From Thiotrichales bacterium (GTDB lineage: Bacteria > Pseudomonadota > Gammaproteobacteria > Beggiatoales > Beggiatoaceae), in the NCBI GenBank assembly GCA_016744475.1, contig JADGEH010000004.1:1-64000 (forward strand): 64,000 bases of DNA, given 5' to 3'. A model generated the notes under the pieces. It had not been told where the DNA came from, did no database searches, and saw only the letters and a list, made by a program, of their open reading frames with translations. Of this stretch, positions 3,113-19,785 are shown in pieces. Within the stretch, counting starts at the first letter, position 1, and every line of letters starts with the position of its first letter. Made by a program: the position numbers and the translations under genes.

Positions 3113-5547
3113 TATTTTGTCCTCAAGGTTTTTATAAAATGCTGTATTTTTCCTAAAGCTAAATTAGAATTTATTTCCTTAATAATAAGACCCTTTTTAT
3201 ATTTTTTGACTCTTTCTGGAGGTGCTCCTAGGTCAAATACAGCAATAGGAATATCTAGTAGCATAACTTCTTCAGTAACATAAGAAAAAGTTTCAGGCCA
3301 AATGGAAGGTAAAAATACTATATCAATAGCATATTTTTCCATTAAATTAGGCAATTCTTCATGTGTGTAGCTACCTGTATTGATATAGTGAATATCTTCT
3401 AATAGGGGTTCAGATGTGTCCCCCATTAATACTATTTTAATGTTCAGCGCATTTGCACGAATAGTATCTAACATTTTTTTGATAATATAAATACCCTTCA
3501 CTTTATTGATATTGCCCAGCACCCCAATGACTATAAAATCACTGGTTTCTTTTTCTGGTAATGTAGGTCGTTTTTTGAATGAATTAACTTTATGAGGTAT
3601 AAGCCTAATGCTTCCCGTATAGAGTGTTGGGTAGGTTTGTTTTATAAATCTTTGGGATGATTCTGAAAAGCAGATAATATCATCTGCTCTGTTTAAAAAT
3701 TTAAGCCAAACTTTACGCCACTCATTCATTTTTAACTGTTTAGGCTCTGAAAATAAAAACTTAAAGTTATCTGCTGGGTGTTGAATTAAACAGTTTTCAC
3801 AAAATAAAATATCTTGCGGAACATCACAAAAGTCATCCTTGTAATTCATTAAAGTATAAGATGGGCAAATGCTGAAGTAATCATGAATATAGATGGTTAA
3901 ATGAAAGTCTGTTTTTTGTTTTTGTTCTAATAACGCATGAATAATTTCTAGCGGTTCAGGGTGAGTGACAAGCTCATTCATATATACAGATTCTATTTTA
4001 AATAAAGAGATAATATTGCTTATTTCTTCTGGATTTTTAACCTCCCAATCATAGTCTAGATTTTTGTGATTTAATAAAAGTTTGGTTTTTTGTTCTGCAC
4101 GATTATGTATGAGAAAAAAAACAATATGTTTTTTTTCAGATAATTTATTTTTTATTTCATTTGAAAATTTATTTGCCCCTCCGCCCCATATGTGATCAAT
4201 GATCAAACAAGGTTTTAGTGCTTGTGATTGATGCAGCATTTCATAATGAAGAAACTGACGAAAATATTTCACCGGATCATTTTTAATAAATTCCTGTACT
4301 AAATCATGATAAATAGGGTGTAATTTCCCAACTTTTTCAATAGCATTGTTGATCAATCTTTTCTTTTCTTCTGATTCAAAAGAGCCTCCATGTTTATGAT
4401 ATACAAATAGATTGGTTGCATGTACATTTCTGTAACCGGCATTATATGCTCGCATACACCAATCATTTTCTTCACCGTAACCACGGGGGAATTCTTTTAC
4501 ATTTAGGAAACCTATTTTTTTTGCGACGTGTTTATTAATACCCATACAAAAACCAACACCCGTTGGAATTTGAACATACGTGTCCTTTGGAGAGATAGAG
4601 AAAAAATAAGCGTCTATTTCATTCACTGACATGCCTTCCATTAGAGCATTATCTTCTGGCATGAGAGGGAAACTGCAAATAGTGGCTGCATTACTAAAAG
4701 GGGTAACTGAAGCGACTTGATCATTAGAAATAATAGGATACATAAGACGCTCTAGCCAATATGGTGGGACTACGGTATCCTGATTCAGGATAACAAAGTG
4801 GTGCTTAGTGAGCTGATACCCTTTGTTGACAGTTGATGTAAACCCCAGATTGGATTCATTGTTTACTAAAGAAAAATGTTTGTTTTCATGTGCTAATTTT
4901 GTTAAAAAGGGTAATACCCGTTCATCAGTGCTGTTATCATTTAAAATAAACACATTATATTCAATTAATGTATTATTTATAACAGATTGGAATAGGGGTT
5001 CTAAGAAATCATAACCATTAAATATAGGGATAATAATATCTATTTTTTCATTTATATAAAAATCCTTTTCTGTGTATTCAAAATGACATTTACTCTCTAT
5101 AAATGAAAATGAAAAACCAGGAATTAAAAAATGATTATAGACATCACTTATTTTATTTTCTTTTTCTATCTTAATGCATAGCGCTAATAATTTTTTTAGC
5201 TCTTCATCATTAGGTTTTATTTTTAAAGCTTCAGATAGCCAATGTTGGCTATTTTTTGTATCCCCTGTTTGAAAAAAAATTTTACCTAAATTTGAACATG
5301 ACTGAATATTTTTTCCATAAATACCGATGGACTTAAATAAAATATGTTTAGCGGCCTCAAATTCCCCATTTGAAGCATATACTAATGATAAAATGGATAA
5401 TGATGCCTTGTTATTTTTCTCTATTTTCATTGCCTTAAAACAGGCTTCTTTGGCTTGTTTAAAGTGTCCAGATTTTAGATGAAAAATAGCTAAATTATTC
5501 ATATCATTTATGAATGATTTTTTATCTATAGTATGTTTTTTTTCCAT
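3112..5547 (-). CDS. TPR - GT2 - GT4 multidomain glycosyltransferase
   Basis: This 811-residue cytoplasmic protein has three parts. Residues 12-140 are tetratricopeptide-like repeats. Residues about 165-400 are a family 2 glycosyltransferase: D-I-I-I-P-I-F-N-G-Y-D at its start and L-N-Q-D-T-V at the metal-binding position. Residues about 440-811 are a GT-B fold of the family 4 type: a G-G-G-A-N-K segment, G-V-L-G-N-I-N-K-V-K-G, and the E-x7-E motif in P-E-T-F-S-Y-V-T-E-E. Two transferase domains in one chain suggest addition of two sugars, or a processive step, in surface glycan assembly. Its AUG lies only a few dozen bases from the divergent gene at 5581, so the two starts share a very short control region. 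Sugar specificity is not readable. Confidence 0.85.
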   Translation of the reverse strand: MEKKHTIDKKSFINDMNNLAIFHLKSGHFKQAKEACFKAMKIEKNNKASLSILSLVYASNGEFEAAKHILFKSIGIYGKNIQSCSNLGKIFFQTGDTKNSQHWLSEALKIKPNDEELKKLLALCIKIEKENKISDVYNHFLIPGFSFSFIESKCHFEYTEKDFYINEKIDIIIPIFNGYDFLEPLFQSVINNTLIEYNVFILNDNSTDERVLPFLTKLAHENKHFSLVNNESNLGFTSTVNKGYQLTKHHFVILNQDTVVPPYWLERLMYPIISNDQVASVTPFSNAATICSFPLMPEDNALMEGMSVNEIDAYFFSISPKDTYVQIPTGVGFCMGINKHVAKKIGFLNVKEFPRGYGEENDWCMRAYNAGYRNVHATNLFVYHKHGGSFESEEKKRLINNAIEKVGKLHPIYHDLVQEFIKNDPVKYFRQFLHYEMLHQSQALKPCLIIDHIWGGGANKFSNEIKNKLSEKKHIVFFLIHNRAEQKTKLLLNHKNLDYDWEVKNPEEISNIISLFKIESVYMNELVTHPEPLEIIHALLEQKQKTDFHLTIYIHDYFSICPSYTLMNYKDDFCDVPQDILFCENCLIQHPADNFKFLFSEPKQLKMNEWRKVWLKFLNRADDIICFSESSQRFIKQTYPTLYTGSIRLIPHKVNSFKKRPTLPEKETSDFIVIGVLGNINKVKGIYIIKKMLDTIRANALNIKIVLMGDTSEPLLEDIHYINTGSYTHEELPNLMEKYAIDIVFLPSIWPETFSYVTEEVMLLDIPIAVFDLGAPPERVKKYKKGLIIKEINSNLALGKIQHFIKTLRTK

Positions 5548-5580
5548 AGTTAATTCAATCTCAATCGAAAAGGCTTGATG

Positions 5581-8355
5581 ATGGGTTCTTTATTAAAAAA
5601 ACAACCATTTTTTTCTATTATGATACCTGTACATAATCGGCTGTCATATTTAGCTGATGCATTGCAGAGTGTTTTGCAACAAGACGTGGGCGATATGCAG
5701 ATAAAGGTGGTTAATGATGGGGGGGATGATGAACATCAACTAAAAATTAAACGCATTATCAGCCAATTTCCCGCTAAAAATATTGAATTTTATAGCACTC
5801 CAGACGATGTTGGACTCATTGGCATCTTTAATACGTGTATCTCTCAGGCTATTGGTCTGTGGGTGCATATACTACACGATGATGATTTGGTTTTGCCAAG
5901 CTTCTATCAGCGCTTACAAGCAGGGTTAGAAAAAGCGCCTGAAGAAGTAGGCGCGGCTTTTTGTCGTCATGTGCATTTTGATGAGCGCGATCAGATTATT
6001 TATACCTCACCATTAGAACGGGAAACGCCGGGGGTGATTGATGATTGGCTAGAACGGAGTGTTATATGTAATCGTGTACAGCCCCCTGCTATGGTGATAA
6101 AACGCGAGGTGCATGAAAAACTAGGGGGATACCTCAAAGAGGCTAACATCGCAACGGATTGGGAGATGTGGTTGCGCGTTGCATCACATTACTCCGTATG
6201 GTACGAACCCACTATTTTAGCTAAGTATCGACGACATACCGCCTCTGCTTCATCTCAATCTCTGGCTCAGGGGATTCAAATGGCTGATACGCGCAAAGTC
6301 ATTGAGATTGCACAAAGCTATTTACCCGCATCGGTTAAACCTTTAATCCCTCAAGCTAAACAACATTATGCGCAGTATTCATTAAATCTAGCTGAACAGT
6401 TTTTACAGCAAAAACATTATGATGGCGTGTTAGCTAACTTGCGTGAGTGCGTGTTATTTCAACCTAATACTCAGCTAAAAACGCAAATGAAAGCTTTTGT
6501 ACATAATATCGCCCCCTTACAAGTGGCTGTCGATTTAGATACAGAGGCTTATCAGGCATTTATTCAGCAGTTAAGTGCTATTTCTGGGGTGAAAATGCCC
6601 TCATCTGTATTAAGCCAGAATGTACAAAAAATGCGCTATCAGTTTGCGCAAGATTGTTTAAAAATCCCTTCTATACAATTACCTACACGCTATCAACAAT
6701 ATTTACAAGCTTCATTGAAAGCCTTTCTCAACACAGAATTACATATCTATCCTTTAGTCAAACAGGAAAAAAACTTTGCTCAGCAAGTACTAAAAATCTG
6801 GTTAAAAAAACCTCAAGTCAATGCTCATTTACTGGTGGTGATGCTGTATTACCCAGCTTATCAATTGCCATTGAAAACTTGCTTTAGTTTGGAGTTACCC
6901 TCTTGGTGGATCAGTGATTTTTTCTGGTATTTGTTAAAACCACCTCGTTTGTTCGGAAAAGTAGGTGAAGCGAACAAATATTATGCTTATGTTGCGGAAT
7001 TACTCACATTGCTGGTGGGTCATGCGCAGCAAAATCCGCAGCAAGCATTATGGCAACAATTAGCACAATATATTGCTGATGAGGTGTCATTCAGTATGCT
7101 GTATTTTACCCCCGCCTCTACTTATCCCGCCCCGGTGTTAAGGGCGCGTGCGGCTTTATTACAGTTTGCGGCTCAACTGCGAGGATGGTCATTGGCTTGG
7201 CGGCCTCAGCCTCAGCAGCGGGACAAAGTTCGGGTAGGTATATTAGCCAAACATTTTGCCCCAGGAACGGAAACTTTTTCTACGCTGCCATTATTTGAAG
7301 CTTTGGATAGGCAACAATTTGAAGTGTTTTTGTACGCTACACAGTCACAACCGTCTGCTTTAGAAGATTATTGTCAGGAAATGACCGATAAATGGACGGT
7401 ATTACCTGCGGATACTTCTTTAGCTGTGCAACAGATACGCGAAGATGCCTTGGATGTGATGTTGTTGGGTACCAATGTGACTGCCAGCGGTCAGGGCGGA
7501 ACGGCCTTAGCTCTGCATCGTTTGGCTCGAGTGCAAATCACCAATTTTGCTTCGCCTGTCACAACGGGGTTTTCCTTTGTGGATTACTACTTATCAGGCA
7601 CTTTATTAGAGTCCGCCGATAATGCCGTTCATTACACTGAAAAATTATTGCGCTTAGAAGGTGCAGGCTATTGTTTTTCTTATCAAGCCGTTTCTGAGCC
7701 GTCCAGCCATATCAGCGTGCCAAGCCGAGAGGATTGGGCAAAAAATCCAGATACTGTGGTCATGATGTCGGGTGCGTTTATCCTGAAAATCATCCCTGAA
7801 GTGCTTGAAACCTGGGCACGTATTTTGGCGGCTACGACAGATACAGTCTTAGTCTTGTATCCTTTTGCACCCAGTTGGATAGACGGTGCCGAACGCTTGG
7901 CTACTGCTTTTACTGAGCACCTGCAAACGGTCTTAAAACGTCACAAAGTAGCCACAGAGCGCTTGATTATTTTGCCCCCTTTGGCAGGGCAACAGGCTGT
8001 ACAGGCTTGCTTACGCCAAGCTGATCTCTATTTAGACTCTTTTCCTTATTCTGGTTCGCATTCAACAGTGGATGCCCTGTTGGCAGGCATTCCTCCGGTC
8101 GTCATACAGGGTCAGTGTGTGCGCTTTAATCAAGCCGCCGCCGCTTTAATGGACATCAATTTGACAGAGTGTATTGCTGAGGATGAGCACGCTTATGAAG
8201 CTTTAGCTATCAAGTTGGCAGAAAATCCAGAATGGAGAATTCAACTGGCTGAATATATTCAAGAAAAAATGCGAAAAACACCAAGATTTCTAAATAGTCA
8301 AGACTATGGGGAACAATTAGGAAAAAGGTTGTTAAATCTACCTGAACTCCAATGA
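5581..8355 (+). CDS. GT2 glycosyltransferase fused to an OGT/SPINDLY-like (GT41) domain
   Basis: The protein has about 924 residues. The start is chosen at the second of two adjacent ATGs, because an AAAAGG ribosome-binding site lies seven bases upstream; the ATG three bases earlier is possible. Residues 8-240 are a GT2 domain (F-S-I-M-I-P-V-H-N-R, V-V-N-D-G-G, and H-D-D-D as the metal motif). Residues about 540-920 resemble the C-terminal half of O-GlcNAc transferases: V-R-V-G-I-L-A-K-H-F, L-P-L-F-E-A-L-D, then D-L-Y-L-D-S-F-P-Y-S-G-S-H-S-T-V-D-A-L. The His usual after the first OGT strand does not align clearly, so this half may be altered or inactive. Such fusions occur in bacterial glycoprotein and polysaccharide loci. 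The target is unknown. Confidence 0.82.
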   Translation: MGSLLKKQPFFSIMIPVHNRLSYLADALQSVLQQDVGDMQIKVVNDGGDDEHQLKIKRIISQFPAKNIEFYSTPDDVGLIGIFNTCISQAIGLWVHILHDDDLVLPSFYQRLQAGLEKAPEEVGAAFCRHVHFDERDQIIYTSPLERETPGVIDDWLERSVICNRVQPPAMVIKREVHEKLGGYLKEANIATDWEMWLRVASHYSVWYEPTILAKYRRHTASASSQSLAQGIQMADTRKVIEIAQSYLPASVKPLIPQAKQHYAQYSLNLAEQFLQQKHYDGVLANLRECVLFQPNTQLKTQMKAFVHNIAPLQVAVDLDTEAYQAFIQQLSAISGVKMPSSVLSQNVQKMRYQFAQDCLKIPSIQLPTRYQQYLQASLKAFLNTELHIYPLVKQEKNFAQQVLKIWLKKPQVNAHLLVVMLYYPAYQLPLKTCFSLELPSWWISDFFWYLLKPPRLFGKVGEANKYYAYVAELLTLLVGHAQQNPQQALWQQLAQYIADEVSFSMLYFTPASTYPAPVLRARAALLQFAAQLRGWSLAWRPQPQQRDKVRVGILAKHFAPGTETFSTLPLFEALDRQQFEVFLYATQSQPSALEDYCQEMTDKWTVLPADTSLAVQQIREDALDVMLLGTNVTASGQGGTALALHRLARVQITNFASPVTTGFSFVDYYLSGTLLESADNAVHYTEKLLRLEGAGYCFSYQAVSEPSSHISVPSREDWAKNPDTVVMMSGAFILKIIPEVLETWARILAATTDTVLVLYPFAPSWIDGAERLATAFTEHLQTVLKRHKVATERLIILPPLAGQQAVQACLRQADLYLDSFPYSGSHSTVDALLAGIPPVVIQGQCVRFNQAAAALMDINLTECIAEDEHAYEALAIKLAENPEWRIQLAEYIQEKMRKTPRFLNSQDYGEQLGKRLLNLPELQ

Positions 8356-8652
8356 CCTCAAGATTTTTATCATTTCTTGCATATATTCATATACGTGACG
8401 AAAAATCGCATCAATCTTGGTGCTGTTCGCTACGGCGCTTTCCCCGCAAGTCAGTCTAATCAGGCAAGAGAAGCCCTTTGTCAGAGGCAAAAACCTCAAA
8501 AACTCACCTCGTTTCCAAATGTCAATGGAGTCATCTCTAAAATAGAAATAATTTTTTCGTGCTTTGATACGCATCCTTTATGGCTGATGTGTCAAAATGC
8601 TTGATTATTTTCATATTCCATTGACGCTAACATAAGAAAGAACCCCTACCGC
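8356..8652. other. Intergenic region with a decayed family-2 repeat end
   Basis: I see no credible gene here. Positions about 8490-8533 match the right end of the family-2 elements at 18775 and 21138: a CCTCAAAA stretch followed by CCAAATGTCAAtGGAGtC, where intact copies have CCAAATGTCAACAGAGCC. No left end is recognisable, so this is a relic. A promoter for ubiB is expected here but none was clear. Confidence 0.55.
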
Positions 8653-10311
8653 ATGTTGCGACCTCGCCAACTCAGCCATCTCTTTTCTATTTATCAAACC
8701 TTGGTCAAACATGGCCTTGATGAATTGATCCCCGTCACGCGGGCGTTACCCATTTTGCGTTTGTTTTTGTTTCTCACTCCCGCTTACTGGCAACGCTGTG
8801 CAGATACACCTCGTGGTTTACGTATCCGTGAAGCACTTGAGGAATTAGGGCCTATTTTCGTTAAATTCGGGCAAATTTTATCTACGCGCCGTGACTTATT
8901 GCCCGATGACATTGCTTTGGAATTGGCTAAATTACAAGATCAGGTAAAACCGATCTCCAATCAGCAGGCTTGGGATATTTTGCACAAGGCTTATGGTTGC
9001 GCACCGGACGTGATGTTTAAGGTCTTTGATCCCGATCCTCTAGCGGCGGCATCCATTGCCCAAGTGCATACTGCACGCTTGTCTAGTGGTGAAGAAGTGG
9101 TGGTGAAAATCGTGCGCCCAGGCATTGAGAAGCGCATTAATCGTGATATTGAAGTGATGTATTTATTGGCTGAACTCACCCAAAATTATTGGGCAGATGG
9201 TCGTCGTTTGCGCTTAGTTGAAGTGGTCAGAGAGTTTGAGCGACATATTCATGATGAATTAGATTTAATGCGCGAAGCGGCTAATTGCGCCATGCTTAAA
9301 CGCAATTTTGATGATTCAGATTTGCTCTATATCCCCAAGGTTGAATGGGATTACACACGCAGTAATGTGATGGTGTTGGAACGCATTTATGGCATTCCTA
9401 TCAGTGATATAGCGCGATTAAAAAAAGAGAAAGTCAACTTACGGCGCTTGGGTGAGTTAGGCGTGGAAATCTTTTTTACACAGGTGTTTCAAGATAATTT
9501 TTTCCATGCCGATATGCATCCCGGTAATATTTTTGTGGATGCGACAAATCCTGATTATCCTCATTATATTGCGGTAGATTTTGGCATCATGGGGGTGTTG
9601 AATAAGGCGGATCAACATTATTTAGCCGAGAATTTTTTAGCCTTTTTTAATCGTGATTATCACCGCGTGGCAGAGCTACATGTGGTATCGGGCTGGGTGC
9701 CAGGTAATACCCGTATCGAAGATTTTGAAAGTGCGATTCGTACTGTGTGTGAGCCGATTTTTAATCGTCCATTAAAAGAGATTTCTTTTGGTTTAGTGCT
9801 CATGCGCTTATTTCAAACCGCCCGACGTTTTAATATGGAAGTGCAGCCGCAATTGGTGTTATTACAAAAAACTTTCTTAAATATTGAAGGTTTAGGGCGG
9901 CAACTTTATCCTGAACTGGATTTGTGGCAAACCGCCAAACCCTTCTTAGAACGCTGGATGCGCGAACGCTTAGGCGGACAGGCGTTGTGGCACAATGTAC
10001 GAGAAGCCGCACCGCAATGGATAGAAACATTGCCCAAATTGCCCAATTTACTACACCATACTTTGGAGCAAATGCAGCATGGGCAACACCAACAGCAGCA
10101 AATGTTGCAACAACTTAAATCACTCGAAAAAACCGTCAAAAATAATGGTCAACGCCATTCTTTAAATATAGGCGGAGCGACATTATTATTAAGTGGAGTT
10201 TTGATTTTGGCGTTAGAAAATCTATCCGTCACACAAATGCCATTGATTGGGGCGCTATTAGCAGGCGGGGGATTGGCGATTTTTTTATTAACATGGCTGA
10301 GCGATAGTTAA
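8653..10311 (+). CDS. ubiB: UbiB, ubiquinone biosynthesis accessory kinase-like ATPase
   Basis: This 552-residue member of the ABC1/ADCK atypical kinase family supports aerobic ubiquinone synthesis with the Ubi enzyme complex at the inner membrane. The family-specific K-F-G-Q motif is present (V-K-F-G-Q-I-L-S-T-R-R-D-L-L-P, around residue 75), as are the A-rich loop (A-A-A-S-I-A-Q-V-H), the lysine of V-V-V-K-I-V-R-P-G, H-A-D-M-H-P-G-N-I-F, and V-D-F-G-I-M-G as the metal-binding DFG. Two hydrophobic segments at the C-terminus match UbiB membrane anchors. Length equals that of the E. coli protein. It stands alone here, without ubiE or ubiJ. The ribosome-binding site is weak. Confidence 0.95.
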   Translation: MLRPRQLSHLFSIYQTLVKHGLDELIPVTRALPILRLFLFLTPAYWQRCADTPRGLRIREALEELGPIFVKFGQILSTRRDLLPDDIALELAKLQDQVKPISNQQAWDILHKAYGCAPDVMFKVFDPDPLAAASIAQVHTARLSSGEEVVVKIVRPGIEKRINRDIEVMYLLAELTQNYWADGRRLRLVEVVREFERHIHDELDLMREAANCAMLKRNFDDSDLLYIPKVEWDYTRSNVMVLERIYGIPISDIARLKKEKVNLRRLGELGVEIFFTQVFQDNFFHADMHPGNIFVDATNPDYPHYIAVDFGIMGVLNKADQHYLAENFLAFFNRDYHRVAELHVVSGWVPGNTRIEDFESAIRTVCEPIFNRPLKEISFGLVLMRLFQTARRFNMEVQPQLVLLQKTFLNIEGLGRQLYPELDLWQTAKPFLERWMRERLGGQALWHNVREAAPQWIETLPKLPNLLHHTLEQMQHGQHQQQQMLQQLKSLEKTVKNNGQRHSLNIGGATLLLSGVLILALENLSVTQMPLIGALLAGGGLAIFLLTWLSDS

Positions 10312-10509
10312 TGACAGTTTGTTTAGGACATGAAAAAAATCATTAAAAATGCTTGTATTTTGCCCATGCTACTTGCACAATCATTGACGAAAAAACTCAA
10401 CTATGTCCCCGAATTTGAGATCGATATCGGTCTTAAAACTAAAATCAAGGCAAACCACTTGTCTTGCTTTTTTATGACGTTAATTAACTATCTTGGAGGT
10501 TGTAATCCC
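10312..10509. promoter_or_regulatory. Upstream control region of the EGKCG-peptide cluster
   Basis: This stretch between ubiB and the precursor gene could be read in frame as a 60-residue N-terminal extension of the precursor (from an ATG at 10330). That extension is not a signal peptide and would bury the real one. A strong GGAGG ribosome-binding site ends ten bases before the ATG at 10510, so the stretch is more likely a 5' leader holding the promoter. I could not assign a definite -35/-10 pair or a repressor operator. Confidence 0.5.
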
Positions 10510-10866
10510 ATGGCTAAGCAAATTGTAAAAACTCCTTTGGCTCTGGCTGTTAGTGCTGCATTGAGCATTGGCGGTATGACTATCGCAAGCAATGTCAACG
10601 CTGACAGCAATCCTTTCGGTGCCACTGATCTGACTGGCGGTTACATGAATGACAGTCATGGTAAAGAAGCCGCTGAAGGAGTCAAAGAAGCGGCTAAAGA
10701 AGCTGCTGAAAAAGGCAAAGAAGCGGCTAAAGAAGCTGCTGAAAAAGGCAAAGAAGGCAAATGCGGCGAAGGCAAATGCGGCGGAGATATGGAAAAAAGT
10801 GACAGCGATGATGATAAAGGTAAAGAAGGCAAATGCGGCGAAGGTAAATGCGGCGGTGCTAAGTAA
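10510..10866 (+). CDS. bufA1: Bufferin/HvfA-type secreted RiPP precursor with four EGKCG motifs
   Basis: This is a 118-residue precursor. Residues 1-31 are a cleavable signal peptide ending in N-V-N-A, with cleavage before D32. Residues 52-83 are two near-identical K-E-A-A-x-E-A-A-E-K-G repeats forming a charged, alanine-rich helix. The only four cysteines (85, 90, 109, 114) all sit in E-G-K-C-G motifs, arranged as two pairs separated by an acidic D-S-D-D-D linker. In the HvfA/bufferin family these cysteines are converted by an MNIO enzyme and its partner to copper-binding heterocycles (thiooxazole type), and the exported peptide buffers copper. The modification genes follow directly. The start is set by the GGAGG site before 10510. 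Doubling of the motif pair by tandem duplication is evident in the DNA. Confidence 0.88.
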
Positions 10867-10886
10867 GTAACGACGAGGCCCTAGCT

Positions 10887-11741
10887 ATGACTTATCCAGT
10901 TCATGGCGCGGGTCTGGGACTCCGGCGAGGCCACTTGATGGACTCGCTGGAGGCTCAATACCCTGCGCAAGTTGGTTTTCTTGAAGTGGCCCCTGAAAAT
11001 TGGGTGGGCGTTGGCGGACGTTTAGGTAAACGTTTTCGCGGTTTTACTGAAGCCCGCACCCTGGTTTGCCACGGACTCTCCCTCAATCTTGGCGGTTTTT
11101 CACCGCTCGATGAAGCTTTTCTCAAGCGCTTAAAACAGTTTTTCCATACCCATCAAATCACTTGTTACAGTGAACATCTCAGCTATTGTGGCGATGAAGG
11201 ACATTTGTATGACCTCATGCCGATTCCTTTCACTGAAGATGCCATCAAGCATGTTTCTGCCCGCATTCGTCAAACACAAGACATTTTAGAACAACGCATT
11301 GCCGTGGAAAACGTCTCTTATTATGCGGCACCAGGGCAAGAAATGTCTGAAATAGACTTTATTAATGCAGTGATTGATGAAGCCGATTGTGACTTACTCA
11401 TTGATGTTAATAATATTTATGTCAATAGTGTGAATCATGGTTATGATGCCGATGCCTTTCTTAAAGCCCTGCCGGGTGAACGGATTATTTATGGGCATAT
11501 TGCCGGACACCACAATGAAGCGGAAGATTTGATTGTGGATACGCATGGTGCAGATATTGTTGATCCTGTTTGGCGCTTATTGCATGTGGCTTTTGAGGCT
11601 TTTGGCGTATTTCCTACGCTTTTAGAACGTGATTTCAATATCCCACCCTTACCAAGCGTGCTCAAAGAAATCAATATGATTTCTGATATTCAGCAGCAAT
11701 ATGACTTGAACAACACCACAGCCCATACCGCTCATGCCTGA
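10887..11741 (+). CDS. bufB1: MNIO (DUF692) enzyme, peptide-modifying multinuclear iron oxidase
   Basis: This 284-residue TIM-barrel protein of the DUF692 family relates to MbnB and HvfB. Conserved metal-ligand blocks are visible in order: E-V-A-P-E-N-W near residue 30, [43 protein letters not shown] and L-L-E-R-D-F. Known members use a mixed-valent iron centre to oxidise cysteine in a precursor peptide. Lying 20 bases after the EGKCG precursor and overlapping the DUF2063 gene by eight bases, it is almost certainly the enzyme acting on those cysteines. The ribosome-binding site is CGAGG, eight bases before the ATG. Confidence 0.93.
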
Positions 11742-12477
11742 TTTTATCCAACAACAACGTGCATTTACGGCTTATATTCGTGATCCAGAAGAAAACCCAT
11801 TGCTAACAGATGTGCCTCAGCAACGTATGGCTGTTTATCGGGAGCTATTTTATAACAATGTGCAAGGATTGCTCAGTAGCACTTACCCGGTTTTGCATAA
11901 AATATTGCCCAGTTCGCAATGGCATTCTTTGATACAAGATTATTTTTCGAAACATCAAGCGCATACGCCTTTATTTCCGCAAATGCCCAAAGAGTTTTTA
12001 CGTTATCTGGAAGATGAGCGTATTCCTCAAGCAGAAGACCCTGCTTTCTTATGGGAACTAGCCCATTATGAATGGGCTGAATTGGGCGTATCTATTGATA
12101 CCCGCGAAGTGGCTTGGAATGCCGCCCCGCCTGAAGATGTTTTAACGCATTCTCCGCGTCTGAGTCCTTTGGCTTGGGTGTTTGCTTATCGCTTTCCTGT
12201 GCATAAAATTAGTCTTGATTATCAACCGACTGAAGCTCCAGAAACGCCGACCTATCTAGTCATTTATCGCACACCGGATGATGAAGTTAATTTCATGCTA
12301 TTAAACCCCGTCAGCGCACACTTGCTGAATTTAATAGATGAAGGGCAAGGACAGCTTAACGGGCAAAACCTGCTGCAAAAAATATGTGATGAACTGCAAC
12401 ATCCTAAGCCCGAAGTAGTGATTCAAAGCGGCATAGGTTTACTGCACGATTTTTATCAAAAATCCATTTTGTTATGA
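11734..12477 (+). CDS. bufC1: DUF2063 partner protein of the MNIO enzyme
   Basis: This 247-residue protein has an N-terminal DUF2063 domain: [12 protein letters not shown], then [12 protein letters not shown] and L-L-S-S-T-Y-P-V-L, with [11 protein letters not shown] near residue 88. In characterised systems this partner recruits the precursor peptide to the MNIO enzyme. The C-terminal half (about residues 140-247) resembles the second, winged-helix-like domain of HvfC-type proteins. The ATG lies inside the last codons of the upstream enzyme gene, an eight-base overlap typical of this pair. It is expected to act in the cytoplasm on the unexported precursor. Confidence 0.9.
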
Positions 12478-12486
12478 GAACCTAAT

Positions 12487-13101
12487 ATGAGTCATCCCTC
12501 TGACGCGCTTGACAGTGAAGATACCTCCTTGAATGAATCTTCCTCCACCAAAGCACCTTTACCGCTATGGCGAAAATGGTTATTAGGCATAGGGATATTG
12601 CTCAGCATGGTGGGACTTGTGTTATATGGCGTGGCTGCTTTGACGGATAGTCCGCCCACCGTGACGACCGCCTCATCGACTGAGAGCACACCCGGTTTTA
12701 GAATCCAATCAATGCCTCCGAGTTCCTTTAGCTCTGATTCGCTCAATTCCAGCACAGACTACCCCGCCTTACCACAAACCCCCGCAGGTATTGCTGTTGG
12801 CGATTGGTCAACCTTGTTTATGAAGCTAGGTTTTAGCTTTGTCGTCGGTTTTGCGATTGCTTATGCGGTGTCCGGTTTTTTAAAAATAGCTTTGTTTGTT
12901 GCAGGCACAGCGTTTTTATTATTATTTGGTTTGCAATACATCGGCTTAATTGAAGTGAACTGGCAAAACATGGGCGGTTATTACGATAACTTCATTGTGT
13001 GGTTGCAACCTCATATTGGCAATTTCCGTGATTTTATCAGCAGTAATTTACCCTCTTCGGGTTCAGCCGCAGTGGGGTTAGTGGCTGGCTTTAAGCGCTG
13101 A
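12487..13101 (+). CDS. FUN14-domain membrane protein
   Basis: The protein has 204 residues. Residues 30-52 are a membrane segment. A serine/threonine/proline-rich linker follows (about 55-98). The C-terminal half is a FUN14-like domain: G-D-W-S-T-L-F-M-K-L-G-F-S-F-V-V-G-F-A-I-A-Y-A, split by me from a longer run, then F-L-K-I-A-L-F-V-A-G and a segment near I-E-V-N-W. Bacterial FUN14 proteins are small inner-membrane proteins of unknown function. The gene follows the DUF2063 gene by nine bases and overlaps the next gene, so it is probably part of the copper-peptide operon, where a DoxX-type protein is often found instead. That membership is inference from spacing. Confidence 0.72.
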   Translation: MSHPSDALDSEDTSLNESSSTKAPLPLWRKWLLGIGILLSMVGLVLYGVAALTDSPPTVTTASSTESTPGFRIQSMPPSSFSSDSLNSSTDYPALPQTPAGIAVGDWSTLFMKLGFSFVVGFAIAYAVSGFLKIALFVAGTAFLLLFGLQYIGLIEVNWQNMGGYYDNFIVWLQPHIGNFRDFISSNLPSSGSAAVGLVAGFKR

Positions 13102-13814
13102 TGGCCAATTTTAAAACCCATCTTGGCGTTGCCGCCATTGCCAGTGGTGGGCTATCTACCCTGTGTTTGGGAGCCGGTTTAGCTACTCCACAACAAGTGG
13201 TCGTGTTGACCATACTGGGTAGTGCAGGCGGTATTTTGCCCGATATTGATTTAGACCATTCCAGTCCCACCAAAATCATGTTTACCGCATTAGCCTTATT
13301 GGTGGCTTTTTTTGCCTTGTTTAGTAAATCAGCCACTTATTCATTACTGGAATTATGGTTGCTGTGGGGCGCTTGTTATTTCTGCATTCGCTATATGGCT
13401 TGGCGCATCTTTTCTGATTTAACCTCACATCGCGGCATTTATCATTCTCTCGTCGCTGCATTATTTTTCTACTTTTTGACCACCACCTTGGCCTATTACT
13501 TATTTGATTGGAATCCCGTAGCTGCTTGGCTGGCGGGTTTTCTGGTCTTTTTTGGCTACATGGTACATTTGGCTTTAGATGAAATATACAGCGTCGATTT
13601 TTCTGATAAACGTCTGAAAAAATCCTTTGGCACCGCCTTAAAACTCATTGATCCGCGTCATTTAAAAAACTCCGTCTTAATGAGTTTCGCCGCCGTGTTA
13701 GTCTTTTTTATGACCCCCGACTTCAGCTACTTCTGGGATGTACTCAGTGACGGTAATACCTGGGGCACACTAGCCAGTCGCTTATTGCCACAGGGCAGTT
13801 GGTTTGAGTTTTAA
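13101..13814 (+). CDS. YdjM-like inner-membrane metal-dependent hydrolase family protein
   Basis: This 237-residue protein belongs to the LexA-regulated YdjM / DUF457 family. The diagnostic N-terminus is present: T-H-L-G-V-A-A-I, then G-G-I-L-P-D-I-D-L-D-H-S. S-H-R-G-I-Y-H-S follows near residue 112 and H-L-A-L-D-E-I-Y-S near 153. His and Asp at these places form the predicted metal site. Four to five membrane segments are seen. The ATG overlaps the FUN14 gene stop by one base (TGATG). No LexA box was seen near it. The TAA stop lies at the junction with a truncated family-1 repeat, so the very 3' end may have been replaced by the insertion. Confidence 0.78.
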   Translation: MANFKTHLGVAAIASGGLSTLCLGAGLATPQQVVVLTILGSAGGILPDIDLDHSSPTKIMFTALALLVAFFALFSKSATYSLLELWLLWGACYFCIRYMAWRIFSDLTSHRGIYHSLVAALFFYFLTTTLAYYLFDWNPVAAWLAGFLVFFGYMVHLALDEIYSVDFSDKRLKKSFGTALKLIDPRHLKNSVLMSFAAVLVFFMTPDFSYFWDVLSDGNTWGTLASRLLPQGSWFEF

Positions 13815-13902
13815 TAGCCCGCTATTTGCCTCAAAAAACCGAAAAAACAGCCTCAAAACCACACCTTTTCGCTGCGATGCCTACCCCATCGCAGCAAGTC
13901 TA
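13811..13902 (+). repeat. Family-1 MITE, right half only
   Basis: This is a truncated copy of the 163-bp family-1 element. It starts in the conserved core (TTAATAGCCCGC, TTAAATAGCCCGC in full copies) and runs to a terminal GCAGCAAGTCTA; the left arm is missing. It touches the stop codon of the YdjM-like gene and ends 22 bases before the next start. Confidence 0.8.
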
Positions 13903-13924
13903 GTAAATACAAGGACTTTATCTG

Positions 13925-14476
13925 ATGGCTACCCGTAAAACCACAAAAAAAACCTCTCTTGCCACCCACTTAATGCTCACAGTTTTATCCTTAATTGTGG
14001 CCGCTATCGCTTACAAGCAGATTTTCCTCGTGAGCCAAGTGTCCAGCACCATTCCTCAAGAAGGTTTAACCCAAGCTTTGCAACGTTGCGTGCAAAATAA
14101 TTTAACCCCGCAAATGCTAAAACAAGGCTGGGCAGGAGAGCAACTGAACTCGCAGCTAAACTTTGATGTAAAAAGTCTATTAGGTGACATGTTCAGTCAA
14201 GTTTCACAAAATTTGATGGACACTACAATCACACAAAACTACATGACTGAAGTGAAAGTGATGAAAGTAGATTGGTTTGGTAAGCAAGCGCAAATGCGCG
14301 TGACAGGTTCTATTGATTTAACCTCAAAAGCCCCCGTCATTGGCAGTATAAAAGCGCAAAAAGATTATCAGACTCAAGTATTTAAACGTGATAACAGTTA
14401 TTATTTTGATACGTTATCCATTAAAAAACGTGATTCCCAACAATGGGATGAATGGACTTGTGCGCAGACTTTATAA
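13925..14476 (+). CDS. Unrecognised single-pass membrane protein
   Basis: The protein has 183 residues. A basic start (K-K-T-T-K-K-T) is followed by one membrane segment, residues 15-37, and then a soluble domain facing outward. Two cysteines are present, one near residue 56 and one in the final W-T-C-A-Q-T-L. The soluble part has amphipathic helices, then two beta-like stretches ([11 protein letters not shown] and [10 protein letters not shown]). I do not recognise the family. An AAGGA site nine bases before the ATG supports the start. It lies 25 bases before gmd on the same strand, so they may share a transcript, but no shared function is implied. Confidence 0.7.
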
Positions 14477-14501
14477 CCCCTCATCAGGAGAACTCTCTGT
14501 T

Positions 14502-15587
14502 GTGAAAAAACGTGCGCTGATTACAGGTATCACGGGTCAAGATGGTGCTTATTTAGCTGAATTTCTGATCCAAAAAGACTATGAAGTACATGGTATTAAA
14601 CGCCGCACTTCTTTATTCAATACAGATCGCATCGATCATCTTTATCAAGACCCCTCAGAATCTAATCGTAGTTTAATTCTACATCATGGAGACATGACAG
14701 ATTCTAGCAGCTTGATTCGCATTATCCAGCAAGTACAACCGGATGAAATCTATAATCTAGCGGCTCAAAGCCATGTGGCAGTATCCTTTGAAGAACCCGA
14801 ATACACTGCTAATGCCGATGCTTTAGGCACTTTGCGCTTATTAGAAGCGGTTAGAATTCTTGGTTTAGAGCATAAAACCCGCTTTTATCAAGCTTCAACC
14901 TCTGAACTATTTGGCAAGGTTCAAGAAGTGCCACAAACTGAAACCACGCCCTTTTATCCACGTTCACCCTATGCTGCGGCTAAATTATATGCTTACTGGA
15001 TTGTGGTGAATTATCGTGAAGCCTATGGTATGTATGCTTGCAATGGGATTTTATTTAATCATGAAAGCCCCGTGCGAGGAGAAACCTTTGTTACCCGTAA
15101 AATCACCCGCGCATTAGCACGCATTAAACTGGGACTACAAGATTGTTTATATTTAGGCAATATGAATGCAAAGCGTGATTGGGGACATGCTAAAGATTAT
15201 GTAGAAATGCAGTGGTTAATGTTGCAACAGGATTCGCCGGATGATTTTGTCATTGCTACTGGAGAACAACATTCGGTGCGAGAATTTGTCTCATTAGCCG
15301 CTGAGCAATTAGACATAGCACTGCATTGGCAAGGCGAAGGCGTTGATGAAAAAGGTTATGATGCTGCTGGACGTTGCATTGTGGCGGTCAACCCACGTTA
15401 TTTCCGCCCAACCGAAGTAGAAACCTTGCTAGGTAAACCTGAAAAAGCAAAACGAATATTAGGCTGGACACCTAAAATTTCATTTGCTGAATTGGTGCAA
15501 GAAATGGCTGCTGCGGATTTACAAGAAGCACAGCGCGATGCTTTAGTACAAAATAAAGGATTTAAAACCTTTAATCATCACGAATAG
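14502..15587 (+). CDS. gmd: GDP-mannose 4,6-dehydratase
   Basis: This 361-residue short-chain dehydrogenase/reductase of the extended type converts GDP-D-mannose to GDP-4-keto-6-deoxymannose, the first step to GDP-fucose, GDP-rhamnose or GDP-perosamine. Visible motifs: the nucleotide-binding [19 protein letters not shown] near residue 130 (catalytic Thr/Ser and Glu), and Y-A-A-A-K holding the Tyr-Lys pair. H-E-S-P[12 protein letters not shown] is also family-typical. The start is GTG at 14502, backed by AGGAG eleven bases upstream. An in-frame ATG 38 codons earlier lies inside the preceding gene and is rejected. No GMER/fcl gene follows, so the second step must be encoded elsewhere. Confidence 0.93.
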
Positions 15588-15610
15588 TTGTACTAAAAAT
15601 AAAAGTAAGC

Positions 15611-15651
15611 CTTATTAGGTAGACATTGAAGCATTCTTGTCTGCTAATAAG
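15611..15651. terminator. Hairpin downstream of gmd
   Basis: An imperfect inverted repeat has CTTATTAGGTAGACA on the left and TGTCTGCTAATAAG on the right, 24 bases after the gmd stop. There is no T-tract, so it could be a transcript-end stabiliser rather than an intrinsic terminator. No gene is seen between here and 15800. Confidence 0.45.
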
Positions 15652-15800
15652 ACTTAGCGCGTGGAACAAGTCTTTGATTTACACACCGCCCCACTGCTTT
15701 TCACCACAGCGGATAAGTCTAATACTGAGTGATTTTTCATGAAGGATTTTGACTTAAATTATCCAGCTTTTCTTTTTCTTCATTTTCTATGCATAAGGTT

Positions 15801-16385
15801 GAAACCTTCGCCTTTCAGGCGAACAGATTTATCTCTGATGTTTTACAATAAAGCATGGAATATCGTTATGGAAGCCACACAGTTTACAATATTGAGTACC
15901 ACTTTGTGTGGGTGACGAAATATAGATACCAGATTTTAACGGGTGATATAGCACTCAGGGTAAGGGAGCTTGTTAGACAAACCTGTGAAGCGTTTGAAAT
16001 CCGGATATTGAGTGGTGTAGTGAGTAAAGATCATGTACACATAGTGGTGTCAGCTCCTCCAAATATGGCTCCAAGCGAAATAATGAGGAGGATAAAGGGA
16101 CGTAGCGCAAGAAAACTGTTTGAGGAGTTCCCCAAGCTAAAAAAACGGTATTGGGGCAAGCACTTTTGGGCAAGAGGCTATTTTTGTGTGTCTGTAGGGC
16201 AAATGACAGAAGATATGATTAAGCGCTATTTGGAACACCATTTTGAAGCAAACTCCGACGACAATTTTAGAACAGAAGGCAGAGAGCCACCAAATTAACA
16301 GGGCTTATTCGCCCTGTATCCCGGCTTTCAGCCGCCAAATCTCTAACCCACCCGTCTTTTAGCGGGTGGTTGTTTAGCCCAGCGC
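15801..16385 (+). mobile_element. IS200-type element (tnpA with left and right hairpins)
   Basis: A single-gene IS200/IS605-family element. The left end carries a perfect 7-bp hairpin, TTCGCCT-TTC-AGGCGAA at 15807-15823. After tnpA come a GC-rich hairpin (ACAGGGC and GCCCTGT, 16298-16317) and the right-end hairpin with a bulged base (AACCcACCCG and CGGGTGGTT, 16345-16371). These hairpins are what the HUH transposase recognises. There is no tnpB. Exact ends cannot be fixed without an empty site; the coordinates are approximate at both sides. Confidence 0.78.
15855..16298 (+). CDS. tnpA: IS200/IS605-family transposase TnpA
   Basis: This 147-residue HUH single-strand transposase has the H-x-H motif in D-H-V-H-I-V-V near residue 58. 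The catalytic tyrosine is in M-I-K-R-Y-L-E-H-H near residue 122. Y-H-F-V-W-V-T-K-Y-R-Y at the N-terminus is the standard family opening, and K-K-R-Y-W-G-K-H-F-W-A-R-G-Y-F matches the Y1 transposase core. Length is typical and no frameshift is seen, so the gene looks intact. The enzyme nicks and joins single-stranded ends next to hairpins, which are present on both sides of the gene. Confidence 0.92.
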   Translation: MEYRYGSHTVYNIEYHFVWVTKYRYQILTGDIALRVRELVRQTCEAFEIRILSGVVSKDHVHIVVSAPPNMAPSEIMRRIKGRSARKLFEEFPKLKKRYWGKHFWARGYFCVSVGQMTEDMIKRYLEHHFEANSDDNFRTEGREPPN

Positions 16386-18733
16386 TCTTGTGACCAAGCC
16401 TCTTCTCCCCAAGCCACTGTCTCATCCTGCTCAGGATTATCCGTTAAACTGAACGTGTCATCATCAATATCTTCATCATTCTCATCGTTATCTAACACTT
16501 CCTCAGCCAATACTTCGAGAGGATCGACATCACTTAAATCATCTTCTGAAGTAAAGTTTTCATCCAGGTCTGTTTCACTGAACATATCATCACTGGGTAA
16601 AACATCGTTATCTATTGCTTCGATGCTATCTTGAGGTGGATAGAGTGCTTCATCTAGTTCGTTAGTGTCATCTGAATCTGTGCAGGTGATGTCAGTTTCA
16701 TCCCCTGGTTCTATTTCAATGCTGTCATCCATTACGTATTCATCAGATATTTCAGCGTCTATGTCTTCGTTATTATAGGCGGCTGTTTCATCCGCGCTGT
16801 CTTGTACATCCCATTCTTCTTCACTATCTGTCTCGGCTTCTATTTCTTCCATATCTTCTGATGTGACTTCATCAGAATCATATTGCGCGTCCCATTGTTC
16901 TTCTGCTTCAGGTGCGTCATCCCATTCAGCTTCATCAGTCGCTTCAGCCTCTATCTCTTCCATGTCATCCGGCGAGGTGTCATCAGAAGCATATTGTCCA
17001 TCCCACTGCTCTTCTGTTTCAAGGGGCTCACCATCTTGTTCAGATTCATCAAATAGTTCGGTGACTTCTTCGGTGCCATTAATACCATCTATTTCAGTCA
17101 TTTGTTCTATGTCAGCTACTTCCAAGCAAGTGTCGTTATGAGCTGTGTCAGTATCGACATCCTCTGTCTGATTTGATGAGGTGTCATCTGTCATTTCAAG
17201 TTCTTGAGGTGCTTGTTCAGAGATATTAACCTCTTCTTCACTCACCAGGTTATCCACTTGTGCTACATCTGCGATGTCTACTACCTCTTCACTTTGAACT
17301 ATAGCTGCACCACTGTTTTCATCACTCTCAATTGCGGTTGTATTATCATTATTCTTATCTGCATTTTTAATCTGCCAACGTAGGCTTTGTAATACTGTTT
17401 GTAAACCTTCTTCAATAGTGGGGTGGTAATAGGGCATTTTTAATAAATCAAACACCGTTAATTCTTGTTCTACAGCCCAAGCCAATAAATGCGCAATATG
17501 TTCTCCGCGAGGAATGGCTAAACTAGCCCCTAGAATTCCACCTCTGTTTTTATCGGCATAAACACGCATGATACCTTTGTCATGACTCATTAATACAGCG
17601 CGGCTTTGGCGTTGAAAATTAAGTTCTCCCACCACAACATCATCGCGGGTTTGAATATCCTCCCAACGCATACCAATTTGAGCAATATTAGGGTCTGTGA
17701 AAATAATGGATAAAGGAATACGGCGTGGAAAACTTTGCACTTCATGAGTAGCGTTGTAAGCCACTATGCGGCCTTCATCTCCCGCTTCGTGCATCGTCAT
17801 GCTCTCGCCAGTAGCATCGCCAGCGAGGAAAATAGGATAGTCGCCCAGTTGTAAGGTATTTGGATCAAATAGGGGTAAACCGGCTTCATCCCATTCTAAT
17901 GATAGGTTCTCCAGCCCTAAGTAATCCAGATTAGGTCGTCTACCCGCTGTAATCAGTAGTTTCTTGACTAAGGCACTGGTATTTCCACTGTGTATGCGCA
18001 GCCAATCACCTTGGATTTCAATTTTTGTGTCTTTACCCAACCAGTAATGAAATTCATCAATTAACAATTCTCCAGCGGCTTTTTGTACGACAGGATCGCT
18101 AATACCTCCAATGTCATCCTCTAAATCAAAGCCTGTGATACGCACGCCTAAACGACTTAAAGCCTGTCCGATTTCTAAACCCACAGGGCCTAATCCCACG
18201 ATGGCCATATCACTGGGTAAATCATCTTGTTCAAATAATTCATCGGTAGTGAGGATGTAATCTTGAAAACCTTCCCAAGCCGTTGGTAATACGGGGGATG
18301 AACCTGTTGCAATAATGATTTTGTCAGCACGAATGTATTCATCATTGACTTCCAATACATTGGGTTCAACAAAACGTGCATAGCCATTGATGCGGTTAGC
18401 TTCAGGAATTTTTAGCAACCCACTCAGTACTCGCGCAATGAAACGATCACGTAAATCGCGCACATGACGCAAAACTTCAGGGATATTCACCTGTAAATTT
18501 TCTGTACCCAAAATGCCTGTTTGCGCAAAATAATGGCGGCGATGAAAGTCTTCAGCCACTTGCAGCAGAGTTTTGCTCGGCATACAACCACTGCGCACAC
18601 TGGTCGTACCATGCGCACCACCATTGATGAGAACAAAATTGCCATCAGTCGCGTCCCGCACTGTGGGTGTGGCGTATAAACCGGCAGAACCGGCACCAAT
18701 AATGGCTACTGCAACGTGTCTGTTGATATTCAT
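16343..18733 (-). CDS. Dihydrolipoamide-dehydrogenase-like flavoprotein lacking one redox Cys, with acidic repeat tail
   Basis: The protein has 796 residues. Residues 1-460 are a class I pyridine-nucleotide disulfide oxidoreductase: FAD-binding I-G-A-G-S-A-G-L-Y, second dinucleotide motif I-V-G-L-G-P-V-G-L-E-I-G, FAD motif F-L-A-G-D-A-T-G, and the dimer-interface H-P-T-I-E-E. The active-site block reads G-T-T-S-V-R-S-G-C-M-P-S-K where relatives have G-T-T-C-A-R-V-G-C: the first cysteine is serine, so the classical disulfide cannot form. Residues about 470-790 are almost entirely Asp/Glu/Ser/Thr with imperfect 35-40-residue repeats marked by E-E-Q-W-D-x-Q-Y. The last nine codons lie in the right-end hairpin of the adjacent IS200 element, so the original C-terminus was replaced. 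The substrate is unknown. Confidence 0.85.
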   Translation of the reverse strand: MNINRHVAVAIIGAGSAGLYATPTVRDATDGNFVLINGGAHGTTSVRSGCMPSKTLLQVAEDFHRRHYFAQTGILGTENLQVNIPEVLRHVRDLRDRFIARVLSGLLKIPEANRINGYARFVEPNVLEVNDEYIRADKIIIATGSSPVLPTAWEGFQDYILTTDELFEQDDLPSDMAIVGLGPVGLEIGQALSRLGVRITGFDLEDDIGGISDPVVQKAAGELLIDEFHYWLGKDTKIEIQGDWLRIHSGNTSALVKKLLITAGRRPNLDYLGLENLSLEWDEAGLPLFDPNTLQLGDYPIFLAGDATGESMTMHEAGDEGRIVAYNATHEVQSFPRRIPLSIIFTDPNIAQIGMRWEDIQTRDDVVVGELNFQRQSRAVLMSHDKGIMRVYADKNRGGILGASLAIPRGEHIAHLLAWAVEQELTVFDLLKMPYYHPTIEEGLQTVLQSLRWQIKNADKNNDNTTAIESDENSGAAIVQSEEVVDIADVAQVDNLVSEEEVNISEQAPQELEMTDDTSSNQTEDVDTDTAHNDTCLEVADIEQMTEIDGINGTEEVTELFDESEQDGEPLETEEQWDGQYASDDTSPDDMEEIEAEATDEAEWDDAPEAEEQWDAQYDSDEVTSEDMEEIEAETDSEEEWDVQDSADETAAYNNEDIDAEISDEYVMDDSIEIEPGDETDITCTDSDDTNELDEALYPPQDSIEAIDNDVLPSDDMFSETDLDENFTSEDDLSDVDPLEVLAEEVLDNDENDEDIDDDTFSLTDNPEQDETVAWGEEAWSQERWAKQPPAKRRVG

Positions 18734-18774
18734 GGGTTCTTAGTCATATAACATAGCTTGAGGAAATGGGGTTT

Positions 18775-18933
18775 TAGGCTCTGTTGACATTTGGATAATG
18801 GCGGCTTTTTGATCTTTTTTACGCCTAGCCGTGTTGGTTTTTGGCTGGCAATGGGGAGCATTGCGGTGCAAAAACCGCCTTGCTAGACGCAATCCTCAAA
18901 ATCCATCTCATCCCCAAATGTCAACAGAGCTTA
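18775..18933 (-). repeat. Family-2 MITE, inverted orientation
   Basis: A 159-bp element with ends TAGGCTCTGTTGACATTT and AAATGTCAACAGAGCTTA. The inside matches the copy at 21138-21300 in reverse. The terminal TTA is also the stop codon of the leftward Rpn-type gene. There is no coding capacity. Confidence 0.85.
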
Positions 18934-19785
18934 GGAAGTGAATATATCTTCAATCCGTTCAGCAGTGAGAATATTCGCAGCCCATTGCATGAGTTTTTCA
19001 TTGGATGCTTGATGGATTTTTTCTTGAACAAAGGCAGGGGTTGATTTGAATTTTGTATTAAGTTGTTGTAATAGCATATCAGCCAAGCCTTGATGCAGCC
19101 CTTCTTGATGTCCTTCTTGATGTCCTTCTTGCCATCCGCCTTGGTAGGAAGGTAAATCACTTATTTTAGTAGCACTCAACATATCGGTCTCCTCGCGTAA
19201 TATGTTTTGCAAGTTGCGGTTGCTAGATAAAATCTCTAGCATTGTCCAATATTCTCTAAATCCCGATTCATTATCTTTTAATAGTGCTTTTAAGCGTTGA
19301 AGAATCTGTCTCACAACGTAGCGTGCATCTTGGCCTTTGAAGTCGCATAAGATAGCCAGTACCAAAGCATCGGGGGTATTGTGTTGTAGAAAGGTTTGGC
19401 AATCAATGCTACGCATATCCAACAATTGATAACGATAAGATAAATTTTCTTCATCTATTATGGAATGCATACGTAATGTTTGCGAACCGATATAAATCAC
19501 ATATTGATAAATGAGTTTATCAGGATAAGCTAAAGCTATATCAACACGATAACGCAACATACGCAAAGGCATTTGAAGGTGATTGTCATTTTGTACTTCT
19601 ATATGTAAAAGATAATCTTTAGGTGCTTTTACATGCAATAGTAAATCAGCGCGACGGTCTTCTACTCTTTGAAATTCTGTATCTAACAGTTCCGCTTCAC
19701 TCACTTCTAAATTAAACAAATAGACAGCCATATCCAAAGCAATATGTTTTAAGAGGCTTTTAGAGACGACATCTTTATTCCCCAT
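18931..19785 (-). CDS. Rpn/PD-(D/E)XK transposase-like nuclease family protein
   Basis: This 284-residue protein of the recombination-promoting nuclease family is related to YhgA/Rpn proteins. Visible marks: F-Q-R-V-E-D-R-R-A-D-L-L-L-H-V and L-L-H-I-E-V-Q-N-D near residues 37-65, which hold the Asp and Glu-x-Gln of the PD-(D/E)XK-like site, then M-P-L-R-M-L-R-Y. Near residue 220 a short Q-E-G-H-Q-E-G-H-Q-E-G-L repeat precedes a C-terminal helical part, as is common in this family. Many sulfur bacteria and cyanobacteria carry several copies. The ATG overlaps the stop of the upstream gene by one base. The stop codon coincides with a MITE end. DNA cleavage activity is inferred from family only. 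Confidence 0.78.
   Translation of the reverse strand: MGNKDVVSKSLLKHIALDMAVYLFNLEVSEAELLDTEFQRVEDRRADLLLHVKAPKDYLLHIEVQNDNHLQMPLRMLRYRVDIALAYPDKLIYQYVIYIGSQTLRMHSIIDEENLSYRYQLLDMRSIDCQTFLQHNTPDALVLAILCDFKGQDARYVVRQILQRLKALLKDNESGFREYWTMLEILSSNRNLQNILREETDMLSATKISDLPSYQGGWQEGHQEGHQEGLHQGLADMLLQQLNTKFKSTPAFVQEKIHQASNEKLMQWAANILTAERIEDIFTS

Follow-up and report, generated by a model that had tools for sequence, protein, structure and literature searches.

A captophorin-type HvfABC cluster in a Beggiatoa-like lineage, very probably abutting a separate FUN14–YdjM module

Introduction

The captophorin clusters, among them oxazolin (hvfABC) of Haemophilus influenzae and the fontiphorin and gonophorin clusters, have in common a Sec-type precursor with EGKCG repeats, an MNIO of the HvfB family and an HvfC/PME1 partner. 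HvfB depends on HvfC, assembles a mixed-valent diiron site and turns the EGKCG cysteines into 5-thiooxazoles, preferring a full-length precursor that retains the signal peptide; the products bind copper (PMC13419390, PMC13097082). In a survey of the MNIO landscape, Buf_EGKCG/oxazolin clusters likewise show repeated EGKCG motifs and a core set of RiPP, MNIO and DUF2063 genes, with core genes and DoxX genes occurring in various combinations; its main text mentions neither FUN14 nor YdjM (PMC12452194). The mmrABC cluster of Microbulbifer, which makes bulbicupramide, also consists of an EGKCG precursor, an MNIO and a DUF2063 gene, and its description does not mention DoxX (PMC12538549).

Here, we analyze a cluster of this kind in the genome of a Thiotrichales bacterium (GCA_016744475.1), located in a 64,000-nucleotide stretch of contig JADGEH010000004.1, which we refer to as the window. 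In contrast to the oxazolin/captophorin clusters, it features no DoxX-like HvfX gene and is followed by genes for a FUN14-domain protein and a YdjM-like protein. Its precursor contains four cysteines, compared to six in HvfA, seven sites in FonA and five to eight cysteines in the mmr precursors, whose cluster also has other flanking genes. A sequence-only reading had proposed that the two membrane proteins may replace DoxX and that the four-motif precursor, with its Ala/Lys/Glu helical spacer, may bind two metal centers.

Results

Gene content and layout

All five genes between positions 10510 and 13814 were recovered where they had first been placed, all on the forward strand (Table 1). They are densely packed: 20 bp separate hvfA and hvfB, hvfB and hvfC overlap by 8 bp, only 9 bp lie between hvfC and the FUN14 gene, and FUN14 and YdjM overlap by 1 bp, which bears out the proposed operon spacing from the precursor through YdjM. 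The next gene, orf183, starts 110 bp after the end of YdjM. A search for a separate promoter before 12487 returned nothing promoter-like in the 9-bp gap or just upstream of it. With tight spacing, a common direction and no such site, hvfABC, FUN14 and YdjM likely share one transcript. An Rfam scan of the window detected no known RNA element above the cut-offs. Further downstream, an IS200-like transposase gene (Y1_Tnp) is found at 15855-16298, about 2 kb behind YdjM, and positions 16343-18733 encode a pyridine-nucleotide disulfide oxidoreductase of 796 aa, which ends in a long and very acidic stretch of about 300 residues added at the C terminus.

Table 1. Coordinates of genes and precursor elements in the window.
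Feature	Position	Strand	Basis or remark
hvfA-like precursor, 118 aa	10510..10866	+	ORF list; NF050137, 28.6 bits (cut-off 19.5)
Conserved 12-residue post-signal motif (NPFxxxxLxxGY-like)	10609..10644	+	Common to most EGKCG precursors of the class
First EGKCG pair	10753..10783	+	Tandem-repeat coordinates
Second EGKCG pair	10825..10855	+	Tandem-repeat coordinates
hvfB, MNIO (DUF692) peptide maturase, 284 aa	10887..11741	+	Pfam/NCBIfam NF003818; 3bww match
hvfC, DUF2063 / NGO1945_C partner, 247 aa	11734..12477	+	NF050145; 3dee match
FUN14-domain membrane protein, 204 aa	12487..13101	+	Pfam PF04930; judged part of a separate module
YdjM-like membrane protein, 237 aa	13101..13814	+	Pfam PF04307; forms a pair with FUN14, as also in Binatia-type loci
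orf183, 183-aa protein, no known family	13925..14476	+	Homologue after YdjM in two other family genomes

The family assignments are well supported by profile scores. The MNIO reaches 334.7 bits against its Pfam family (cut-off 25) and 424.8 bits against the HvfB equivalog (cut-off 360), while its partner reaches 84.9 bits against DUF2063 (cut-off 27.2) and 297.6 bits against the HvfC equivalog (cut-off 142). Membership of the bufferins was rejected, as the MNIO scores 258.6 bits against the BufB equivalog NF050167, under the cut-off of 310. Solved relatives point in the same direction: 3bww (E=6.5e-72, the match spanning most of the length of HvfB) and 3dee for HvfC (E=9.4e-11) have both been assigned to such MNIO clusters (PMC13097082). 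We accordingly retain the original reading of the first three genes, since both equivalog cut-offs are exceeded; judged by its sequence, the segment 10510-12477 is an HvfA–HvfB–HvfC cluster of the oxazolin/captophorin type, encoding an MNIO-modified RiPP. The FUN14-domain and YdjM-like assignments hold as well, at 51.1 and 37.2 bits against gathering cut-offs of 22.5 and 29, respectively; for the YdjM protein, a sequence-profile search returned no solved relative.

The genome contains a second MNIO locus (L001), a bufferin-1 cluster with a BufA1-type precursor, an MNIO, a partner gene and a DoxX gene. It has an MNIO, a DUF2063-type partner and a Sec-type precursor in common with the window cluster, but differs in the type of precursor and in featuring DoxX, and its MNIO shares about 38% identity with the window HvfB.

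The precursor peptide

The precursor frame is nested in-frame in a longer ORF, whose ATG at 10330 would give a product of 178 aa. As the Shine-Dalgarno sequence ttggagg before the ATG at 10510 is conserved together with this start in the same-genus homologue, the likely product is the 118-residue protein. From N to C terminus, it comprises a signal peptide, a post-signal motif, Ala/Lys/Glu repeats, a first EGKCG pair, an acidic linker of 15 residues and a second EGKCG pair. The signal peptide, called by eye, is probably of the Sec type, with cleavage after SNVNA at about residue 31. ORF and translation confirm a putatively secreted precursor with four cysteines in all, each of them within an EGKCG motif; the motifs form two 10-residue pairs. 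The Ala/Lys/Glu stretch, described as a helical spacer, is present, but it precedes the first pair and does not lie between the pairs. A reversed control pattern for the EGKCG pair had 0 matches in 43 genomes, which argues against a chance occurrence of the motif pair. Compared to the KCGExKCG_twice domain NF050137, whose cut-off the precursor exceeds, the strict HvfA equivalog NF050188 gives 19.6 bits, far under its cut-off of 95; we therefore term the precursor HvfA-like and do not call it an HvfA orthologue.

Could the short precursor partly be an assembly artifact, with a longer repeat array collapsed in the short-read assembly? The gene contains near-perfect tandem repeats of 33 bp and 15 bp, the genome is a draft of 253 contigs, and in the same-genus homologue the repeat array is interrupted by an assembly gap (L026, 7300-7400). 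However, the window gene is free of Ns, its frame is intact, and four motifs are also found in other genomes, which is why we regard a collapse as rather unlikely, while leaving it some weight.

Genomic neighborhood of MNIO and FUN14 genes

The sequence-only reading made recurrence of FUN14/YdjM genes beside MNIO clusters its test beforehand. We scanned 120 MNIO-partner loci with their flanks by profile search (114 HvfC-like and 6 BufC-like, the window included), which takes in the flanks of 100 further loci. An MNIO gene was found in 119 of these loci and a DoxX gene in 63, whereas FUN14 or YdjM within about 5 kb was found in a single one, the window itself; these adjacency counts are lower bounds, as some flanks end at contig ends. 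The profiles were made from the family's own homologues, so that very distant FUN14 genes could escape, a gap partly filled by a Pfam FUN14 search of the class genomes. From the opposite side, none of 36 FUN14 loci of other genomes showed an HvfB, HvfC or BufC match up to 8 kb to each side. Across the 43 family genomes, FUN14 protein matches occur in 11 and YdjM matches in 24; the window is the only place where either adjoins an MNIO gene, and the flanks of the six other family HvfBC loci (L026, L027, L028, L030, L033, L189) contain neither. The class sample of 369 genomes has HvfC-family matches in 210 (118 over the cut-off) and FUN14 in 3.

Individual genomes illustrate this independence. 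G010 has all the parts, yet on separate contigs or far apart, and G016 has FUN14 and YdjM without an MNIO. In the same-genus genome G001, which shows no FUN14 and no YdjM match, the HvfABC cluster adjoins cysE/iscR/iscS-like genes (named by eye from the sequence) and not ubiB. Ten genes next to HvfC that were sampled with Pfam comprised two NUDIX, one DUF302, one MlaA, four Glu_synthase and one thioesterase gene as well as one without a match, and neither FUN14 nor YdjM was among them. A Glu_synthase-domain gene follows HvfC in L133, L155, L161 and L164 and may be a recurrent neighbor. The literature on FUN14 with DUF692 and on bacterial FUN14 yielded nothing bearing on the gene association. 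With 0 loci besides the window, the expected recurrence failed to appear: FUN14 and YdjM are not regular captophorin partners.

The two genes do, however, accompany each other without an MNIO. FUN14 is directly followed by YdjM in six of the 36 FUN14 loci (L219, L220, L221, L222, L224, L226), all lacking an MNIO and all from Candidatus Binatia or from a bin that closely resembles it. Their YdjM proteins are 56-58% identical to that of the window, and in the YdjM tree the Binatia clade sits in an open fork among family sequences. A homologue of orf183, a protein with an N-terminal hydrophobic segment, follows YdjM in G024 and G006 (L048, L049), again with no MNIO beside it. Because FUN14–YdjM and YdjM–orf183 both occur elsewhere without an MNIO, the window can be seen as joining an HvfABC module to a FUN14–YdjM–orf183 module, which probably came to abut by rearrangement; the different neighborhood of the G001 cluster fits such a rearrangement. 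Named relatives of the FUN14 protein belong to Thiotrichales bacterium, Candidatus Venteria ishoeyi, Candidatus Marithrix and Thiomargarita, which points to a Beggiatoa-like family. In the YdjM alignment, H7, D48, D50, H110, H115, H156, D160 and E161 are invariant, which suggests a membrane-bound metal-dependent hydrolase.

Are the membrane proteins nevertheless captophorin partners recruited in this lineage, taking the place of DoxX in metal handling or in membrane repair under copper stress? The operon-like spacing through 13814, with no promoter-like site in or shortly before the 9-bp gap, and the absence of DoxX from the cluster (window positions 4001-20000 gave no DoxX match) would fit such a role. 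Against it stand the zero recurrences in the other HvfC/BufC-type loci and in the 36 FUN14 loci, and the existence of the pair without an MNIO. Moreover, DoxX is present in just 61 of the 114 HvfC-like loci and is thus not a required feature; it is missing from five of the six other family HvfBC loci, L030 being the exception, with no such substitute there, so nothing needs replacing. Finally, the same genome retains DoxX in its bufferin-1 locus. We consider such a recruitment very unlikely, and reject the proposed replacement of DoxX on the basis of the non-recurrence beside MNIO clusters.

Motif number and a post-signal motif across EGKCG precursors

To place the precursor in context, we compared 77 EGKCG precursors with at least three motifs. 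Motif counts, which are lower bounds for draft genomes, range from 3 to 13 with a median of 6, and exactly four motifs are found in 12 of the 77; the window precursor is low-normal. In G006, the only MNIO/HvfC pair found (L028) is preceded at 5864-6151 by a signal-peptide-bearing repeat protein that lacks both cysteines and the NPF motif, while a different contig (L279) encodes a normal EGKCG precursor, with about 11 motifs. The idea that four motifs and an Ala/Lys/Glu helix make a new architecture with two defined metal centers draws on the two EGKCG pairs being held apart by the acidic linker. Yet this two-pair plan is also seen in the precursor of L027, a locus of the same family, the precursors of L026 and L030 carry charged or Gly/Ala/Lys spacers between many units, and Cu binding of such peptides is heterogeneous and aggregating (PMC13097082). 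Since four-motif and two-pair precursors recur, the case for a special precursor falls away, and two defined centers appear highly improbable.

A different element of the precursor is shared far more widely. The pattern [DNST]P[FY]..L/M..GY occurs N-terminal to the first EGKCG motif in 62 of the 77 precursors, namely in the window (10609-10644) and in 61 precursors among loci L027-L214, L279, L284 and L285, with an NPFxxxxLSSGYMVA-like consensus just after the signal peptide. In shuffled controls, it appeared 0 times in 200 rounds. Every one of the 62 carriers has P, F, G and Y, with N found in 56 and L in 57, although the pattern was chosen after seeing examples and has P, G, Y and nearly F built in. 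It is absent from the bufferin-1 precursor of this genome. No such motif is named in the main text of the MNIO papers compared, though a conserved leader has been noted in Microbulbifer precursors (PMC12538549). As it follows the probable cleavage site, the motif could either help HvfC to dock before the peptide is exported or have a function in the mature peptide, making it a candidate element for HvfC recognition or for a post-export role.

Discussion

Taken together, we think it very probable that an ordinary HvfABC cluster (10510-12477) and a separate FUN14–YdjM(–orf183) module abut in this lineage, where transcription may continue from the one into the other. This reading builds on the gene identities, their spacing and the motif arrangement in the sequence, on the non-recurrence of the neighborhood and on the independence of the FUN14–YdjM pair. 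That a conserved FUN14–YdjM membrane module was instead captured into the captophorin operon of this lineage, so that copper-peptide output and a membrane function are co-induced, is an idea to which we give very little credence.

How would the abutting HvfABC cluster operate? By analogy to its published relatives, HvfC would bind the precursor via the signal-peptide/leader part and activate HvfB, which would then oxidize the EGKCG cysteines, so that four 5-thiooxazoles are expected in the window precursor, at about -4 Da each. The modified peptide would subsequently be exported by the Sec pathway and may bind Cu(I) to buffer excess copper outside the cytoplasm; this chemistry, the order of export and copper binding are carried over from the described systems. 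The FUN14–YdjM(–orf183) module, possibly co-transcribed, would probably have no part in making the peptide.

The locus contributes one more captophorin-type cluster, from a Beggiatoa-like lineage, and the survey of its neighborhood shows that these systems can do without DoxX and do not regularly have FUN14 or YdjM as partners. Moreover, the class-wide post-signal motif makes substrate recognition by HvfBC directly testable.
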